A stretch of DNA of 45,406 nucleotides from a virus. Location: IMG/VR virus record IMGVR_UViG_3300036760_000059, positions 1-45,406 of that record; one strand, 5' to 3'. Position numbers and translations under genes: made by a program. This document shows, piece after piece, positions 20,442 through 29,356 of the stretch; position 1 is the stretch's first letter; each line of letters opens with the position of its first letter. The notes under the pieces are model-generated. The model was not told where the DNA came from and did no database searches. It saw only the letters and a list, made by a program, of their open reading frames with translations.

Positions 20442-21395
20442 TTACGCTGTGATGCCAGTGAGTTTACCGAGTCGACGTCGGTTATTGGTAGCGAGTTCAC
20501 AAGCCATAATTAATTGAGCAACTTTGGCAGTTTGGTTCGCTGGTTTGACCCACTCGGTCATTTTCAGGTTGTTGTTTGAAGAAACGTACAGTTGTAGGTG
20601 ACGAGTATCCAAGAAGAACATAACGCCAGAAGTGGCATCATTGTCGAAGATAACTTTCGCATTCTTGAACGCTAATGCACCAAACGACGCATCTGCACGA
20701 TCATTCGAGGTGTAGCGCAATTGTGGAACCAACGAGCCTTCATAGAACCCATGAACAGTCGGGGTCGTGATGATGAGGTCAGTCTTTCCACCTTCAATGG
20801 TCAGAGCATTGTAGAGAGTCAACATGTCAGCGCGACCTCTAGCAGCAAAGCTGCCGGAAGCGTCAACATCTGACTGCCACCACGAATAAGTCGTGGAGTT
20901 AATGTCTCCGATTGAACTTGTCGCATCAATGGTTGTAACCAATGATCCGATTTCAGTTGAGGTTGGCGTAGAATCATAGAGCTGAGTATTAATCAGATCC
21001 TTGAGTGACATCGTCGCTTGTTTAATCTTTTGGTCAACAATACTAAGAACAGCTGATTGCCCTTGATTCTGGATGTTCTCTTCACGGTTAGAAACGGAAA
21101 TAGAAACAGCAGCCTCTTTCCATTTGAACTGCGCCGTGGTGAACCCTTCTTGGGGCGTTGTAACTAACTGATCGTAACCATCATAAAACTGAGCAGTGGT
21201 GTTCGCACCATACATCAACGGGGTAACGATAGAAGCTCCACCATCAAGAATTACTTGGCCTTTTTCTTTGAGAATTGCTAACGTAGGAATATCATCGAAA
21301 ATAGCATCTTGGATATCTTTCCGACGATTCTCTAAGGTTGTGGCCAACAGCGTAGTTGTATACGTTGGGCCATGTGTAAACAGTGTATCTGCCAT
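20442..21395 (-). CDS. Major capsid protein, HK97-fold type
   Basis: A 317-residue protein. Features fit HK97-fold coat proteins of podovirus-like phages: an N-terminal helical arm with ENRRKDIQDAIFDDIPTLAILKEKG, and an E-loop-like ITTPTV and GGASIVTPLMYGANTT region. FKWKEAAVSISVSNREENIQNQG then leads to the long spine helix (QKIKQATMSLKDLINTQLYDS). A later beta P-domain has AKVIFDNDA and FFLDTRHLQLYV. It lies directly after the scaffold gene. No clear ribosome site precedes ATG 21395. A 9-bp hairpin lies upstream (21422-21448). Confidence 0.85.
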   Translation of the reverse strand: MADTLFTHGPTYTTTLLATTLENRRKDIQDAIFDDIPTLAILKEKGQVILDGGASIVTPLMYGANTTAQFYDGYDQLVTTPQEGFTTAQFKWKEAAVSISVSNREENIQNQGQSAVLSIVDQKIKQATMSLKDLINTQLYDSTPTSTEIGSLVTTIDATSSIGDINSTTYSWWQSDVDASGSFAARGRADMLTLYNALTIEGGKTDLIITTPTVHGFYEGSLVPQLRYTSNDRADASFGALAFKNAKVIFDNDATSGVMFFLDTRHLQLYVSSNNNLKMTEWVKPANQTAKVAQLIMACELATNNRRRLGKLTGITA

Positions 21396-22433: not shown

Positions 22434-22757
22434 TTATTTACCGAAGAAATATGTCTTACCTTTCTTCGTTTCGTTTCTTGACCCGTGTTGATGTTCGGCA
22501 CTGGTTGCTTGACGAAGGTTAAGCATCTTCATAATAGCTGCCTTCTCGCGCTTGGTACTAAATGGTATTGGTTGTCCTGTTTTAGGGTTGCACAGATTCT
22601 CATCTGTTTGAATTCCACCCCGACCTCCGAGATACACGTCAGGTAACCAGATAATGGGAACTCGACCACATTGGTCACAAATCTCCCACTTCTTTCCATC
22701 CGTGTATCCTGTCTGACCCCTAACTGCGTGTTGGTTGTTGCAGCCGCTGCAGATCAC
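22434..22757 (-). CDS. Small zinc-ribbon protein between portal and scaffold
   Basis: A 107-residue protein with C-x2-C (CSGC) at residues 3-6 and C-x2-C (CDQCG) near 27-30, a zinc ribbon. The C-terminus is basic, with PFSTKREKAAIMKMLNLR. The start is a GTG that overlaps the portal stop (TAGTG), so translation is coupled to the portal. Its place between portal and scaffold suggests a part in head assembly or packaging, but no function is known. Confidence 0.68.
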   Translation of the reverse strand: MICSGCNNQHAVRGQTGYTDGKKWEICDQCGRVPIIWLPDVYLGGRGGIQTDENLCNPKTGQPIPFSTKREKAAIMKMLNLRQATSAEHQHGSRNETKKGKTYFFGK

Positions 22758-24814
22758 TATTTAGACTCCGGTTTCGGTTTAGGGGCAGTTGCCTGTTTCT
22801 TCTTCATCATAGCAATCTCCGCTTCATTTTTAGCTTGAGCCATCTGTAGTTCATGGCGGGTTCTCATCTCTTCCATTTGAAGTTCATGTTGCAACTTGAT
22901 AGTTTCAAGTTGAGCTTCAAGTTCGGCTTTGCGCTTTGCAATAGCCATTTCATTCTGAGCTTCCATCTGTTCCGCTTGGATCTTGCTTTGAGCTTCTGCT
23001 TCGATACCCTTAGATTCTTTCTGCATTTTAAGGAATTCAACTAGAACCTTATTTTGTTTAGTCGCTGCATTCTCCGCATCCATCTGAGTTTCGGCAGCTT
23101 GTTTCGACAAGGCCAGTTGTTTCATTTCAGCTTCACGTTCCTTACCTTCAGCCTTCTGAGCCATCTGCATCTGTTGTTCTGTATCGAGTGCCATTATAAG
23201 TTCTTGTACGTCCATATTCTCGGCAATAAGTTTGGCCACTGTTCCCATAAAAGGACCACCCGGCATTGCCCCAGCTTTAGGACCAAGTTCGACTAATTGG
23301 AATAATGTCTTCATAAGTTCGGCCTTGTCTAAAGGAGTAGAAGAACCGGAAACAGGTTCTAAGTCAAATTCCCCTTCAATATCCTCAGCTGTAAATGTAA
23401 ATCCTTCTTTATTGGTTACTGAACTTTGGGATTGAGCAGACGCTCTCTCTTTAATAGCTCCCTGAAGTTCTGGCGAATCTTGTCCCACAATTCTCGCATA
23501 ATAAGGAACCGTAACAAACTGTTGAAGAAGAGCAACTAACTTAGTCGCTATATCTTCTACAAAGTCTTCAACCAAGTCAACTTTCTCAGACCGACGATTA
23601 ACAGCTCCTTCCCGCATCATGTTCAATTCACCGACTGTGCGAGTAGAGGTCTTTTGGGTAGCTCCGCGTTCTTGTGGAGATTGACCAGAAACATTTATTT
23701 GATCTTCTTTGATTCTTTCTTCAATAGCGTAAATATCAGTCTGAAGCGGGGGATAAGGCAACGCCATGATCTTGCTAGGATCTTCAGCCAAAGCAATAGT
23801 ACCAGTTACACCCTTCTTAATTTTTGCCATCTCGTCATCATTGATGTTATTAGGAGTTGTTATCAACTGCCGGTTGTATCTCTTGAGATGATCCAAAGCC
23901 ATCGAGCGTACTTTAATTAATTCTAAAACTTGGGGTTCAAACATAGCAACATCAGAAAGACCATAGGCCATATCATTACTAAAGTTAAACTTCAGCATGC
24001 TAAATGGCAATCCACGCATCTGTAACGGCCACTTTTTTTCTTCAAGATACTTCTCCACACCTTCGGTAATAGTACAAACAGTTTGTTTCTCCATATTCCA
24101 CACTTCATGTAACCTAACTTTACCTTTATGAGACTCTTCACTTTCTGACGGCATATCTTTCTCATCTTCAAAACTAGCGGTAAGACCATCAGTATTCTTG
24201 TAGCGGGGGTTACTTTTTACTTCATCAACATCCAACCAAACAGAGTGAGCTATCCACTTTGAATCATATGGTGGGTCCATTGAATCATCATTAAACGTGA
24301 TATCTTCCCAATTCACATGGTATGCGAAAATATCTTCTGATTCGATGGTATCAATGTATCCTCCCATCTCGTCTTCAATACTTCCAAATTTACCAGTGTA
24401 TCCAAGTTTGACCCAACTGTGGCCGATTAAGAGTGCGTCAATAACACACTTCTTAACTTCTCGTTTAATCTTCTTGTACTTCCAAATGTAATTAATAACT
24501 TCCTCAAGTACCTTAGCGGTATTAATAGAAGTTCGATTTTTAGGGTTGACTTTAATATGGGGATCTCTGATGTAGAGAGAGGGTAGTTCTGTCTTAACGT
24601 AGGCAAAAATTAAGTTAATAGGCATGATGTCGATATCAACATTAAACGTAAATTGGCCTTTATATTCGTTGATAAGTTCTGTCCACCGATAGTCCTTCTT
24701 GACTTTGTCTCGGCGATCGCGGGCTTTCTTGATGGCAGATAGTTTTTCTCTAACTGCTTCTGCTTCGTTCTTTGGTTCTTTCTCTTCATCTGTAGGTTGG
24801 TCTGCGTAAGTCAT
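22757..24814 (-). CDS. Portal protein
   Basis: A 685-residue protein. The N-terminal region has a charged helix and an INEYKGQFTFNVDIDIMPIN segment, then FAYVKTELPSLYIRDPHIKVNP, the usual portal wing beginning. WVKLGYTG and a DDSMDPPY beta region follow, then helical core MLKFNFSNDMAYGLSDVAMFEPQVLELIKVR. The last ~130 residues form a long charged coiled coil (about 550-675, Gln/Glu/Lys/Ala-rich). The dodecameric portal is the DNA entry channel and the docking site of terminase and adaptor. AGAGGTAAT precedes the ATG. Confidence 0.85.
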   Translation of the reverse strand: MTYADQPTDEEKEPKNEAEAVREKLSAIKKARDRRDKVKKDYRWTELINEYKGQFTFNVDIDIMPINLIFAYVKTELPSLYIRDPHIKVNPKNRTSINTAKVLEEVINYIWKYKKIKREVKKCVIDALLIGHSWVKLGYTGKFGSIEDEMGGYIDTIESEDIFAYHVNWEDITFNDDSMDPPYDSKWIAHSVWLDVDEVKSNPRYKNTDGLTASFEDEKDMPSESEESHKGKVRLHEVWNMEKQTVCTITEGVEKYLEEKKWPLQMRGLPFSMLKFNFSNDMAYGLSDVAMFEPQVLELIKVRSMALDHLKRYNRQLITTPNNINDDEMAKIKKGVTGTIALAEDPSKIMALPYPPLQTDIYAIEERIKEDQINVSGQSPQERGATQKTSTRTVGELNMMREGAVNRRSEKVDLVEDFVEDIATKLVALLQQFVTVPYYARIVGQDSPELQGAIKERASAQSQSSVTNKEGFTFTAEDIEGEFDLEPVSGSSTPLDKAELMKTLFQLVELGPKAGAMPGGPFMGTVAKLIAENMDVQELIMALDTEQQMQMAQKAEGKEREAEMKQLALSKQAAETQMDAENAATKQNKVLVEFLKMQKESKGIEAEAQSKIQAEQMEAQNEMAIAKRKAELEAQLETIKLQHELQMEEMRTRHELQMAQAKNEAEIAMMKKKQATAPKPKPESK

Positions 24815-24815
24815 A

Positions 24816-25673
24816 TTACCTCTCTTGTAGTAGATCCCCGAATAGTTTGTTAATGCGATCAGACTGTTTAGATTTAGGTGTCTGTTTTTTCCACCAGTTG
24901 AGCGATCCGTGGGGTGACGAATCTACACTAGCTTTGCTTAGTTCGCCAGAACGCCAGAATGGAACCTGATGAGCCAAAGCATCTATGATGTCATCATGAG
25001 TATTGCGTGGGAACTGGATAAGTTGATACTCTAAATCTGTTAATCCTTGTCGATGTTTAATTAGGCCATTTGCATAGAAAGGTAGCATTCCTCGAATTCT
25101 CATGGCTTTTGTTTCTTTGGTACTACGTCCTACTTCTTCTATCGTAAAGAAATCTTTACGTTTAATCATCTCTTGCTTAAAAGCGCTTACAAACACCAAT
25201 TGAGATGAAGTGGTTTCCAACAAAATCTTTGATATGTTATAAGTCTTTCGTAAAGTAAATACCTCATCTATCAGTTGAGGTGGTGACATCCGCTTTTGCA
25301 TTGCTTCCATAACGTAGATCATATTGCCAGGTAAGATCTTTGTAATAGCTATGCCAGTATAGTCATTAACTGTAGATTGTCCTACGGCTGGATCAATTGA
25401 CATGATTCCTGGTGTATTTGTCAGTTGGGTTGTTAAGTCGGAAGTAAAAGAGAACCTCTGTACCCACTCTTGTTTGAACTCAACTGACTCAGCATCAATC
25501 GGATCATTCATATACTGAGAAGAGAATGAGTGCGGACTCTTAGACTTTCTTAAACACTCCAAGCATTTCAGTTTCTCTCTATTTTTATGGTCAACACAGT
25601 TACTACAATACTTACCTGGAAAAATCACTTTACCATGTTCAACAGCCCTTCTAATGTAAACACTTAGCGACAT
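24816..25673 (-). CDS. terL: Terminase large subunit, nuclease half (split gene)
   Basis: A 285-residue protein carrying only the RNase H-like nuclease domain of a large terminase. D94 in MSIDPA, E153 in ILLETT and D227/D228/D231 in HDDIIDALAHQ match the metal-binding acidic residues. It opens with the usual interdomain linker (IRRAVEHGKVIFPGKY, then SSQYMNDPIDAESVEF). The linker contains an added four-Cys cluster, C23-x2-C26 and C37-x2-C40, a possible zinc finger. No Walker motifs are present; these are encoded at 27816-28538. It should cut concatemeric DNA. The ATG overlaps the stop of the 46-aa gene (TAATG). Confidence 0.85.
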   Translation of the reverse strand: MSLSVYIRRAVEHGKVIFPGKYCSNCVDHKNREKLKCLECLRKSKSPHSFSSQYMNDPIDAESVEFKQEWVQRFSFTSDLTTQLTNTPGIMSIDPAVGQSTVNDYTGIAITKILPGNMIYVMEAMQKRMSPPQLIDEVFTLRKTYNISKILLETTSSQLVFVSAFKQEMIKRKDFFTIEEVGRSTKETKAMRIRGMLPFYANGLIKHRQGLTDLEYQLIQFPRNTHDDIIDALAHQVPFWRSGELSKASVDSSPHGSLNWWKKQTPKSKQSDRINKLFGDLLQER

Positions 25674-25813
25674 TACTTCTTCTTTTTCTTCTTAGATCGT
25701 TTTCTTCGTAGTACATCATAAGCAATGGCAATAGCCTGATTTTGAGGTCTACCTGTAGCCATCAATTCAGCAATGTTTCTACCCATATTCTTTTTACCTG
25801 ACAATAACGGCAT
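25673..25813 (-). CDS. Small conserved phage protein, 46 aa
   Basis: It begins MPLLSGKKNMGRNIAELMA and continues TGRPQNQAIAIAYDVLRRKR, ending in a run of six lysines. This matches the common short phage protein with the MPL-x-GK...NI...GRP-x-QAVAIAL pattern. The basic tail could bind nucleic acid. TTTAGGAG lies six bases before the ATG. It is the last gene in the interval that splits the terminase and overlaps the nuclease-half start by one base. Confidence 0.7.
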   Translation of the reverse strand: MPLLSGKKNMGRNIAELMATGRPQNQAIAIAYDVLRRKRSKKKKKK

Positions 25814-25827
25814 ACTAGTCTCCTAAA

Positions 25828-26061
25828 TTACTGTACCTTCCTAAAAACAGAAGGAAGTGACTTCGGTGGAGAAGGAATCTGATTTTGTAGTGACATGATT
25901 TGGTTTATGTAGTTATTTTTTAAAGTAGCCACATCATATTTCTCATTAGTTTGTTTATCTCGGATATCGTCTTGTTGGTGTCCTGTTCCAAACTTGGATT
26001 GTAGAACTTGGTAGATGAGTTCCAAGAGTTGGTCTGAATCTGTGGGATTAGTGTCAAGCAT
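25828..26061 (-). CDS. Hypothetical helical protein, 77 aa
   Basis: Not recognised. Helical, Gln/Asn/Asp-rich, ending in a Pro-rich basic stretch. ATG 26061 is used; a GTG at 26073 is an alternative and neither has a strong ribosome site. The start overlaps the 3' end of the upstream gene, suggesting coupling. It lies inside the terminase-splitting interval. Confidence 0.5.
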   Translation of the reverse strand: MLDTNPTDSDQLLELIYQVLQSKFGTGHQQDDIRDKQTNEKYDVATLKNNYINQIMSLQNQIPSPPKSLPSVFRKVQ

Positions 26062-26350
26062 TGTCTGGACCACCCGACCACACTAAAACTTCGATTACAG
26101 TGTTTGCCGTTTCTGATTGTACATATAAACTATTGTTGCTATGTAAGTTATCATCAGAATAAGTACTTCCAGCTTTTAGTGTTACATACTTAGAAGCAGA
26201 CTCTGATACTTTAAAGGCCAGTTTAACTGCAACACTAGTACGTGCCTGAACCATCAATTTGTGGTAGTTAGATGGTAAACTAATCACGTACTCAACATTC
26301 GCCTCTTCAATAACACCATTAATAATAGTAGGTAATCCCGCATCTCTCAT
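26054..26350 (-). CDS. Small beta-rich protein, 98 aa, in terminase interval
   Basis: Not recognised. Strand-rich (EYVISLPSNYHKLMVQAR, VAVKLAFKVSESASKYVTLK, NTVIEVLVW), resembling a compact beta-sandwich or virion ornament. It starts two bases after the stop of the preceding gene and lacks a strong ribosome site, so it is probably translated by coupling. Confidence 0.55.
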   Translation of the reverse strand: MRDAGLPTIINGVIEEANVEYVISLPSNYHKLMVQARTSVAVKLAFKVSESASKYVTLKAGSTYSDDNLHSNNSLYVQSETANTVIEVLVWSGGPDNA

Positions 26351-26352
26351 AA

Positions 26353-26748
26353 TTAACTCAAGTCAAAGGCAAATATCCTTGCCCGTCGAATTTTAACTGT
26401 ACCCCCAGAAATGGATTGAAACTCAAGGGATATATTTCTAGGACCAGCCAATAAAGATAGAAGACAGTGAGTAGAGTATCCAAACCACTTGTCGGAACTT
26501 TTTATAGACACAATAAATGAAGCTGCTTCAGTAACTCCGTCTATTATTAGTCTAACCTCTAAATCATTGTCCTTCGCTACACATAATCCTTCTGCTGAAA
26601 CAAACACAAGATAGGTGGTTCCAGTAGAATTCAACACCAACTGTAAAGCAGAGACATAGGAAGTGGACTGAGTAGTCTGAACACTCTCATTTAATGCATA
26701 CTGTTCTGTGTTAGTAAGTTGAGACAGGTGAAGTTCTGTCCGAGGCAT
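26353..26748 (-). CDS. Beta-rich virion-type protein, 131 aa
   Basis: Not recognised. A strand-rich fold like a jelly roll or beta-sandwich (ALQLVLNSTGTTYLVFVSAE, DLEVRLIIDGVTEAASFIVS, NISLEFQSISGG). The start overlaps the stop of the 187-aa fibre-like gene (TAATG). Its composition suggests a structural or carbohydrate-binding head ornament. It is one of seven genes between the two terminase halves. Confidence 0.55.
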   Translation of the reverse strand: MPRTELHLSQLTNTEQYALNESVQTTQSTSYVSALQLVLNSTGTTYLVFVSAEGLCVAKDNDLEVRLIIDGVTEAASFIVSIKSSDKWFGYSTHCLLSLLAGPRNISLEFQSISGGTVKIRRARIFAFDLS

Positions 26749-27311
26749 TACATTTTAATGTAGTTAACTCTTATTTTTGACACAGTGTGTGGAGCTTGAT
26801 TAAATGTAATCACAGCACCAGCAATAGTGTAGTCTTCGGAACCGCCGAGATCTTGCAAAAGACCATTTAAAAATACGTTCTCTGTGCCAAGTTCGGGGGT
26901 AAATGCAAGAGTAAACACTGTATTAAGAGAGTTAACTAATCCTGTTGGAATTTCCCGTGTAATAACTTCGTCGAGATTCACGACGTTCACATCCGTATTG
27001 ACAGATGCAATCGCAGTATCTAACTGACCTTTGGTAATAGCGTCTGTAGCAGCAACACCATTCGCCACATTGGTAAGTTTAAAATTACCTGCATCAAAAG
27101 CAGCGGTTAAGGCAACTGATCCATCACGCTTTAAGAATTCTGCTCCATCAGTTAATTTAGATGTAGCAATACTTCCCGCTAGATCTCCGTTAGTGATAGA
27201 AGTGGCGAGAGATAATTTTGAATAAACAATTGCAGCATCCGCCGCAATTTGTGCATTTTCAATCGATGCATCAATAATCTGTGTATTTCCACGGATTTTT
27301 GTATTAGCCAT
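26748..27311 (-). CDS. Short tail-fibre/appendage-like protein, 187 aa
   Basis: The N-terminal half has fibre-like repeats (IRGNTQIIDASIENAQIAAD, LTDGAEFLKRDGSVALTAAF, DAITKGQLDTAIASV). The C-terminal half carries a VFLNGLLQ...DYTIAGAVITF...IRVNYI module, the common phage structural element of the form (E)VFLNG-x2-Q-x(n)-DYT-x-ITF. GGAGGAGTTTAT precedes the ATG. The same module occurs in the next gene upstream. It is likely a virion surface protein, oddly placed within the terminase locus. Confidence 0.62.
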   Translation of the reverse strand: MANTKIRGNTQIIDASIENAQIAADAAIVYSKLSLATSITNGDLAGSIATSKLTDGAEFLKRDGSVALTAAFDAGNFKLTNVANGVAATDAITKGQLDTAIASVNTDVNVVNLDEVITREIPTGLVNSLNTVFTLAFTPELGTENVFLNGLLQDLGGSEDYTIAGAVITFNQAPHTVSKIRVNYIKM

Positions 27312-27322
27312 ATAAACTCCTC

Positions 27323-27604
27323 CTAGAGTTGTTTCTCAAAATACACAACAATTTCATCTCCCGCCGTTAAAATTGTCGCTGTATTAAAAATTATACTTGT
27401 AGACGTGGGTTGATATGCTGCTCCAACACCTCTAATCTGGTAAAGTCCATTTAATAAAACTACATCTGTTTCTGGTGTCAGTGTATTCTCTAAAGCATAT
27501 TCCTTGACATTCGAGTCTGTCACAAAAAACCGCTTCTCTGTAAATGTAGTTGATAACGTTGTTAAATATATATTCACAGTACTAGACGGTGCTGTTATCC
27601 CCAT
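27323..27604 (-). CDS. Small virion-type protein with LNG-x-YQ module, 93 aa
   Basis: The second half reads VVLLNGLYQIRGVGAAYQPT, then IIFNTATILTAGDEIVVYF. It is clearly related in layout to the C-terminal module of the downstream 187-aa protein. The first half is a short Thr/Phe-rich strand region. GGGGAGAATGGGTT precedes the ATG. The pair suggests local duplication of a fibre-tip or ornament module. Confidence 0.58.
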   Translation of the reverse strand: MGITAPSSTVNIYLTTLSTTFTEKRFFVTDSNVKEYALENTLTPETDVVLLNGLYQIRGVGAAYQPTSTSIIFNTATILTAGDEIVVYFEKQL

Positions 27605-27638
27605 AACCCATTCTCCCCTAAGACGTAAGAAATTCCCG

Positions 27639-27812
27639 TTAGTTGCCTGTAGTCAAAACAGGTGTACTTCCGTAAGTCGTCATCTTGTGACACTGAGGGC
27701 ATTCATTACCTTGTTCTAAATCAAGAATGCCGTCGGGATAGAAAACTATCCAGGAACCACATCCACAGGCACATTCTTCAAACCGATAAAAAGATATTAG
27801 CATACTACGCAT
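27639..27812 (-). CDS. Small zinc-binding protein directly after terminase ATPase gene
   Basis: A 57-residue protein with CACGCG and then CPQCH, i.e. three closely spaced Cys followed by C-x2-C-H, fitting a zinc ribbon. It begins three bases after the stop of the terminase ATPase half. ATG 27812 is the longest start; ATG 27803 is an alternative ten bases after AGGA. Function unknown. Confidence 0.6.
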   Translation of the reverse strand: MRSMLISFYRFEECACGCGSWIVFYPDGILDLEQGNECPQCHKMTTYGSTPVLTTGN

Positions 27813-27815
27813 GTC

Positions 27816-28538
27816 CTAAGACGCAAGAAGTTCTCTCCATTTAGATCGTTCAGTAGCACTCACTGGTCGACCATTCAAACTCGTCATCTCATTCTCAATG
27901 AGATAACCATATAAGTCACCCATAGCCCATCTTGTACCGATTATGATCTCTAAACCACCTGGGTCTAGCAAGTCTAGACCATTTTGGCGAAACCGTATAA
28001 TCTTTTGGATTTGCTCTGGAGTACCTATGTTGTTCTCTTCGACTAGGTCGTCATGTATGATAATGTCGAAGTGCATACCGGTTACCGCCTTCTCAACGCC
28101 TCCGGTTTTTATAGTGGGTTCTTTGACAGTGCCGATTGTCCTTTGTGAGATCGTAATCTCGTCTTCAGTAAATTTTGACCCTTTACTGTCGAATGGCCCA
28201 AAAATGTCAGAAAGCGGACTCTTGTCCTGTAACAGTCCTGTAATCTCTCTTAAAAAGGTTCTACTCAAATCCCACACTGCGTTCGTGATAAAGATACGAA
28301 CATTAGGGTCTATGAGGATCTGCTGTATAGTCCAGCCAACTGTAACTATGCTGCTCTTGAGGTGACCGCGTGGAATAAGCAAAAGCTTGTGTCTATCGGG
28401 TAAGGCGAGTTCACGGACTAAGTCGTCATGCAACGTATTGTCCCAATCCTTCATCCCCAAGATGGTCTTACAGAGAAAGCGCAGATCTGTTTGACATCGT
28501 TTCTTTAAAGCGTGTAAGTCAGCGCTGTCTTGAGGCAT
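27816..28538 (-). CDS. terL: Terminase large subunit, ATPase half (split gene)
   Basis: A 240-residue protein containing only the N-terminal packaging ATPase domain. The Walker A-type loop is PRGHLKSS (56-63). Walker B is FDIIIHDDLVEEN (157-169) with E167/E168 as candidate catalytic glutamates. The coupling motif is IIGTRWAMGDLYGYL (199-213). It stops about 27 residues after the coupling motif, just where the nuclease domain should follow; that domain is encoded separately at 24816-25673. The two halves sum to 525 residues, a normal TerL length. There is no strong ribosome site, and the start overlaps the preceding gene by 20 bases. Confidence 0.87.
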   Translation of the reverse strand: MPQDSADLHALKKRCQTDLRFLCKTILGMKDWDNTLHDDLVRELALPDRHKLLLIPRGHLKSSIVTVGWTIQQILIDPNVRIFITNAVWDLSRTFLREITGLLQDKSPLSDIFGPFDSKGSKFTEDEITISQRTIGTVKEPTIKTGGVEKAVTGMHFDIIIHDDLVEENNIGTPEQIQKIIRFRQNGLDLLDPGGLEIIIGTRWAMGDLYGYLIENEMTSLNGRPVSATERSKWRELLAS

Positions 28539-28746: not shown

Positions 28747-28938
28747 TTATTTTATATCTTTACTCTTTATGACCTTTGCCTTCTGTTTAGGTTCATAGGC
28801 CTCATCGAATCTTGTAGGCAGATCTCTCACAGGTCTATGAATAGTCATGTCATACTCTGGAAAATGCTTCGTTTCGCCAGGTTGTAGGTCTTTGATCATC
28901 TTGTTCAATTCTTCTGTACTAGGCGGTTTCTTTTCCAT
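28747..28938 (-). CDS. Hypothetical small charged protein, 63 aa
   Basis: Not recognised. Short, Lys/Glu/Pro-rich and probably largely helical or disordered, with a basic end (KAKVIKSKDIK). ATG 28938 is chosen over an upstream ATG (28956) because GAGG lies nine bases before it. Its start lies within the last bases of the small terminase gene. Confidence 0.5.
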   Translation of the reverse strand: MEKKPPSTEELNKMIKDLQPGETKHFPEYDMTIHRPVRDLPTRFDEAYEPKQKAKVIKSKDIK

Positions 28939-29356
28939 TGTCTTTATCCTCTGCATTGATTTTAAACAGATCCTTCAGTCTCTGGTCTTTATTGGGACCC
29001 CTTTCTTCATAACGGTCTTTCCAGATAGACGGTCTATAGGCTTTCAGAACGCCGAAGGCAGCAGTGGGGTTTCTATGCGCCAAGGTGAATAGAGCTTCTT
29101 CCATGTCATCACATATGTCTTCTACAGCTTTCTTCTTCTCTATCTTGAACTTATCATCCCACCGTAGGTGATCTGTAACGGTATGTCTATTAACCCCGAT
29201 GGTTTCACAAGCTTTCCCGAAATTCGCGCTGGACCTGAAGATTTTCAAAAACTCAACCTTCTGCACTGCAGTAAACCCATTCTTTATGTGCGTTCCAGGC
29301 TTTATGGTGTAAAATCCTGTTTTATCGTCTATTTCGTAGTAATCGTGGACTGACAC
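28919..29356 (-). CDS. terS: Terminase small subunit
   Basis: A 145-residue protein. A helix-turn-helix lies at about 44-68 (ANFGKACETIGVNRHTVTDHL), followed by WDDKFKIEKKKAVEDICDDMEEALF and NPTAAFGVLKAYRPSIWKDR. That is the usual small terminase pattern of a DNA-binding head, a helical oligomerisation part and a conserved W-K-(D/E)-R element. It recognises viral DNA and controls the TerL motor. The start is a GTG at 29356 with GGGGG seven bases upstream. It is the first gene of the leftward late operon, behind the bipartite promoter-like element at 29385-29420. Confidence 0.82.
   Translation of the reverse strand: MSVHDYYEIDDKTGFYTIKPGTHIKNGFTAVQKVEFLKIFRSSANFGKACETIGVNRHTVTDHLRWDDKFKIEKKKAVEDICDDMEEALFTLAHRNPTAAFGVLKAYRPSIWKDRYEERGPNKDQRLKDLFKINAEDKDNGKETA

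Follow-up and report, generated by a model that had tools for sequence, protein, structure and literature searches.

The virus record IMGVR_UViG_3300036760_000059 of IMG/VR, analyzed here over its whole length of 45,406 nucleotides (nt; hereafter the window), encodes its large terminase (TerL) in two separate genes, one for the ATPase and one for the nuclease. The packaging region lies on the minus strand, with the small terminase (TerS) gene, two small open reading frames (ORFs), the ATPase gene, seven small ORFs, the nuclease gene, the portal gene and further head genes in that order (Table 1), so that the TerS-TerL-portal order of canonical TerL loci is present. Both halves fall in a single TerL family, phrog_38, in profile searches, and the two ORFs have the coordinates given in a preliminary description of the sequence. 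That description also gave them a normal TerL total of 525 amino acids (aa) and counted seven same-strand genes between them; both figures agree with our analysis, and the gap measures 2,142 nt. A whole-TerL profile search of the complete record returned these two halves and no third match, thus an intact TerL copy is absent from the rest of the record.

The ATPase half (chain 1) aligns to positions 263-466 of the phrog_38 profile, and the nuclease half (chain 2) to positions 503-713. As first described, Walker A (PRGHLKS), Walker B (DIIIHDDL) and the coupling motif (GTR) are all intact in chain 1, with minor variants among the 11 other split ATPases listed. Profile, motifs and fold agree in identifying this chain as the TerL ATPase, its predicted structure resembling the terminase ATPase structures of PhiV-1, T4 and P74-26. 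The chain does not end 27 residues past the coupling motif as had been stated: GTRW ends at residue 204, leaving 36 residues. Chain 2 is identified as the RNase H-like nuclease by phrog_38, by its conserved acidic residues and by Pfam Terminase_6C, which matches this half only. The acidic residues are retained, as claimed: D94 and E153 are found in 17/17 aligned split nucleases, and D227, D228 and D231 in 16/17, the remaining one (L023) being cut off by the contig end. A zinc-ribbon-like CxxC-x10-CxxC insert near the start of chain 2 is common to L003-L009 and L013, and absent from L015, L018, L019 and L023; in L004 (12767-13708) this region is longer by 32 residues and has extra cysteines.

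Searches with either half identified 18 further contigs with the identical arrangement. Across these 19 contigs (the window, L003, L004, L005, L008, L009, L013, L015, L016, L017, L018, L019, L023, L087, L141, L148, L149, L150 and L152) the two domains, which a TerL normally holds in one polypeptide, occupy two ORFs, and 18 distinct split TerLs are represented, since L015 and L016 carry an identical TerL in different samples. The contigs, from uncultured phages, derive from about 16 IMG metagenomes and one NCBI metagenome-assembled genome (MAG) contig (L087, 42 kb, binned as Saprospiraceae). The latter was the one match of the nuclease profile in a search of prokaryote genomes, in which the ATPase profile gave no match. 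Among cultured relatives, six annotated phage matches were also examined for the same split, and all six have single-chain TerLs. The halves of the other split members are at most 95% identical to those of the window, with minima of 42% for the ATPase and 35% for the nuclease. Both halves are under purifying selection, with ratios of nonsynonymous to synonymous substitution rates (dN/dS) of about 0.02-0.12 between close members, taken only where dS was not saturated.

The split is thus not an assembly error. An explanation by misassembly, rearranged contigs or decaying pseudogenes draws on the fact that all sequences but one are metagenomic viral contigs, and on L017, where most of the nuclease half is on the opposite strand and a partial nuclease start lies at the contig end (5645-8828), probably reflecting a chimeric contig. 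However, the identical break across about 16 metagenomes and one MAG, the conserved order TerS-ATPase-nuclease-portal, dN/dS far below 1 and intact motifs make such an origin almost inconceivable.

The break falls at the same point in all split TerLs, about 14 residues after the coupling motif. In alignments with continuous relatives, the homology of chain 1 extends through the coupling-motif helix (...GTRWAMGDLYGYLIENE) and no further, and the start of chain 2 lies one to three residues from the next strand (SVYIRRA). We located this point in an AlphaFold model of the continuous TerL of L020, which has a normal TerL fold (predicted local distance difference test score, pLDDT, 89) and matches the TerL structures of PhiV-1, T4, HK97 and Sf6. 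The break maps to the loop between the helix at 210-216 and the strand at 220-224 of the model, in which the first nuclease strand comes only at 306. In T4, the coupling motif lies where the ATPase subdomains NsubI and NsubII meet, and NsubII provides the transmission to the nuclease across a hinge (PMC3012670). Taken together, the strand order of the L020 model and the T4 subdomain boundaries place the break close to the engine/transmission junction rather than at the hinge. The nuclease half therefore does not start at the interdomain linker, as first proposed; it starts upstream, on the ATPase side, and so holds more than the nuclease. It includes the last ATPase-side strand and the linker as well and, judging by order and the published boundaries, probably also the lid, or transmission, region.

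What separates the two halves is much less constant than the break. In L003 there is no gap, and the two genes overlap by 4 nt (ATGA; gcgtcATGAgtcta); the halves of L141 and L152 overlap as TAATG. The gap is 11 nt in L013, 124-873 nt in L149, L150, L148, L018, L017, L005, L015, L087 and L019, and 1,879-2,573 nt in L008, L004, the window, L009 and L023. Gene content varies as well: a five-gene block of the window cassette (27323 to 25828) is common to L004, the last three cassette genes occur in L008, one in L009, and none in L003, and the intervening DNA includes a 668-aa gene in L009 and a 394-aa lectin-like gene in L008. Given this variation, the split is the constant feature and the cassette a secondary variable insertion, so the seven intervening genes do not define the arrangement as the preliminary description had it. 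The 98-aa cassette gene (window 26054-26350) also recurs in L019 (8681-8950), far from the TerL junction, and thus moves independently of the split.

These junctions also bear on whether the halves are rejoined before they function, be it through intron removal, trans-splicing, intein activity or ribosomal frameshifting. Inteins and introns do interrupt TerLs elsewhere: the continuous relative L022 and ctLwi270 hold inteins, and the TerL of cyanophage Mic1 has two (PMC7156551). In such cases the gene is interrupted but its product is rejoined into one chain, whereas in the window nothing points to rejoining. Neither the window region nor ten relatives gave a credible match to a group I or II intron in Rfam, so no intron joining the halves, a possibility raised at the outset, was found there; in L003, L141 and L152 an intron is excluded, since no DNA intervenes, and these overlapping genes retain their stop codon. 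Neither junction end has intein sequence, chain 1 ending in a short tail and chain 2 starting near a conserved strand, and N- and C-terminal intein fragments, as expected of an intein or split intein, are missing at the junction. The split is thus neither an intron nor an intein. Gaps of up to 2.6 kb with several genes exclude frameshifting in the members that have them, and the tail, conserved as protein, sits between the two parts. We therefore regard rejoining by any of these routes as very improbable.

All split ATPases extend about 20 residues past the break, with a common pattern of roughly SxNGxx(I/V)...W. An alignment of this tail from six divergent lineages scored 510, against a mean of -262 and a maximum of -140 for shuffled tails, a generous comparison since the alignment was built from the very sequences scored. 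The tail is missing from the close continuous relatives L020-L022 and L143. One possibility is that it serves in docking. A loop of comparable length occupies the tail site in distant continuous TerLs (the L153 family, and L165 and L167, which have an NG motif), so the tail may instead be a loop remnant, the similarity to these loops being too weak to decide.

The continuous relatives are L020 (503 aa), L021, L022 and L143, and L020-L022 show about 51-54% identity in the ATPase half. The TerL of L022 (7956-9938) contains a mini-intein just before CQYMNNP, where ctLwi270 has its intein too. Trees built from the joined alignment unite all split forms with these four in one clade (100/100), with other continuous TerLs outside, and the four continuous forms nest among the split forms. 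This topology suggests one split followed by one re-fusion; only suggests, since the approximately unbiased (AU) test fails to reject monophyly of the split forms (p=0.305 and, in a second test, 0.068). A continuous terL in relatives had been named at the outset as an argument against a genuine split; such genes do exist, and the split is not thereby an artefact.

We directly observe two genes, a constant break, intact motifs, purifying selection and, among close relatives, a tail found only in the split forms. Our preferred interpretation, which we hold with good though not full confidence, is an obligate two-chain packaging motor. Here the large terminase would be made as two polypeptides and assembled into one motor without a peptide bond. 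Chain 1 would be the ATP-hydrolysing core ending in the conserved tail, and chain 2 would comprise the last ATPase-side strand, the probable lid region, the linker and the nuclease. In most members the nuclease gene begins in overlap with, or directly next to, the stop of the gene before it, irrespective of that gene's identity, so both chains are probably produced from one late mRNA with translational coupling. The interface of the putative heterodimer would be the engine/transmission junction, with the chains docked through the tail on one side and chain 2's N-terminal strand on the other. The lid could still move the nuclease because the two would stay covalently joined, and chain pairs would form a ring as in single-chain terminases. 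The ATP-binding cleft of T4 is formed between NsubI and NsubII (PMC3012670); by analogy, its counterpart here may be situated where the two chains meet. At the very beginning of chain 2, residues 4-22 show conservation equal to that of the nuclease core (0.70 vs 0.66), which would be expected of a segment packing against chain 1.

The same residues bear on a different view, in which there is no single motor subunit: chain 1 alone would translocate DNA and chain 2 would be a free cutting enzyme apart from the motor. Separate genes could yield different protein amounts, and T4 domains separated at the linker keep both enzyme activities (PMC3012670). However, a chain start as conserved as the nuclease core speaks for a heterodimer rather than a free nuclease; chain 1, for its part, is without the strand and following region found in chain 2, and the separated T4 domains fail to translocate (PMC3012670). 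We consider this division of labour unlikely, although less so than rejoining.

Some points weigh against the obligate two-chain motor. It is deduced here from genes; the lid is assigned from order and published boundaries rather than from coordinates; the close relatives L020-L022 and L143 are single-chain; and since T4 cut at the linker loses translocation, it cannot be taken for granted that two chains make a working motor. The preliminary description had called a two-chain motor likely. Recurrence, purifying selection, overlapping genes and the absence of a second TerL, an intron or an intein uphold that assessment, with the heterodimer itself still presumptive. More tentatively, and as less probable than not, the split forms could represent a long-lived phage clade with an obligate two-chain motor, in which the ATP cleft (engine vs lid) is the chain interface, held by the dedicated tail, and L020, L021, L022 and L143 are one sublineage in which the two genes were later re-fused and the tail was lost.

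The window resembles single-chain phrog_38 TerLs (L020, L021 and L143, and the structurally solved PhiV-1 TerL, T4 gp17, T7 gp19, HK97 and Sf6 gp2) in domains, motifs, their order and the location between TerS and portal; these have one chain, whereas the window has two, separated close to the engine/transmission junction, and its chain 1 bears an additional tail. Laboratory-cut T4 gp17 also has ATPase and nuclease on separate chains (PMC3012670), but that cut is artificial, lies at the linker and abolishes translocation, while the break in the window is natural, lies upstream of the linker and leaves it intact. Another comparison is offered by ctLwi270 (GenBank MW202554.1, L002; 9804-12341) and L111 (1579-3483), each with two adjacent TerL genes, annotated or predicted, before the portal. 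These form another class of split TerL: one small ORF separates the chains, which are divided where the nuclease domain begins, so that chain 1 retains the linker, and neither falls in the clade of the window. Chain 1 of ctLwi270 also has a LAGLIDADG-type intein. A two-gene TerL of a different kind is already annotated for MW202554.1; of a two-gene TerL with the break studied here we found no report in the full-text open literature, a search that most subscription journals fall outside.

If true, a natural two-chain motor cut elsewhere than the T4 linker would offer a direct test of where force transmission needs covalent continuity, and its ATPase and nuclease could each be supplied or mutated without the other. 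In annotation and in terL-based phage taxonomy, such phages may be mistaken for carriers of truncated terminases.

Table 1. Features of the packaging region of the window.
Feature	Coordinates	Strand	Basis or remark
Small terminase (TerS), 145 aa, upstream neighbour	28919-29356	minus	matches phrog_4044 (terminase small subunit) at E=5e-9
TerL chain 1 (240 aa), the ATPase core	27816-28538	minus	phrog_38, E=1.2e-31
Walker A, PRGHLKSS, residues 56-63	28350-28373	minus	sequence; conserved in split ATPases listed
Walker B, DIIIHDD, residues 158-164	28047-28067	minus	sequence; conserved
Coupling motif, GTR, residues 201-203	27930-27938	minus	sequence; invariant among 12 aligned split ATPases
C-terminal tail of chain 1, residues 218-240	27819-27887	minus	in all split ATPases, absent from L020-L022 and L143
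Whole cassette, seven small ORFs between halves	25673-27812	minus	variable among relatives
Cassette ORF 1, 57 aa	27639-27812	minus	
Cassette ORF 2, 93 aa	27323-27604	minus	
Cassette ORF 3, 187 aa	26748-27311	minus	tail-fibre-like matches
Cassette ORF 4, 131 aa	26353-26748	minus	
Cassette ORF 5, 98 aa	26054-26350	minus	
Cassette ORF 6, 81 aa	25828-26073	minus	
Cassette ORF 7, 46 aa	25673-25813	minus	
TerL chain 2 (285 aa), RNase H-like nuclease preceded by the final ATPase-side strand, probable lid region and linker	24816-25673	minus	phrog_38, E=2.7e-37; Pfam Terminase_6C; junction alignment
Zinc-ribbon-like insert (C23, C26, C37, C40)	25554-25607	minus	sequence; subclade-specific
Nuclease acidic residues D94, E153, D227, D228, D231	24981-25394	minus	alignment of split nucleases
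Portal protein, downstream neighbour	22757-24814	minus	Pfam P22_portal, E=4.5e-15
Major head protein	20442-21395		downstream of portal in minus-strand packaging region

We found no tRNA genes in the record, and a Bacteroidota-type promoter pattern had 1 match vs 0.76 expected, so neither points to a host; the assignment of L087 to a Saprospiraceae bin gives no more than a hint. Our searches also identified a TerL ORF with one in-frame stop in L115 (2559-4148), possibly reflecting stop recoding or a sequencing error and different from the split studied here. Finally, the halves (window 24819-28538) matched two PHROG terminase families of only about half the TerL length, phrog_4758 (243 columns, ATPase) and phrog_5573 (250 columns, nuclease), which may hide other split or interrupted TerLs.
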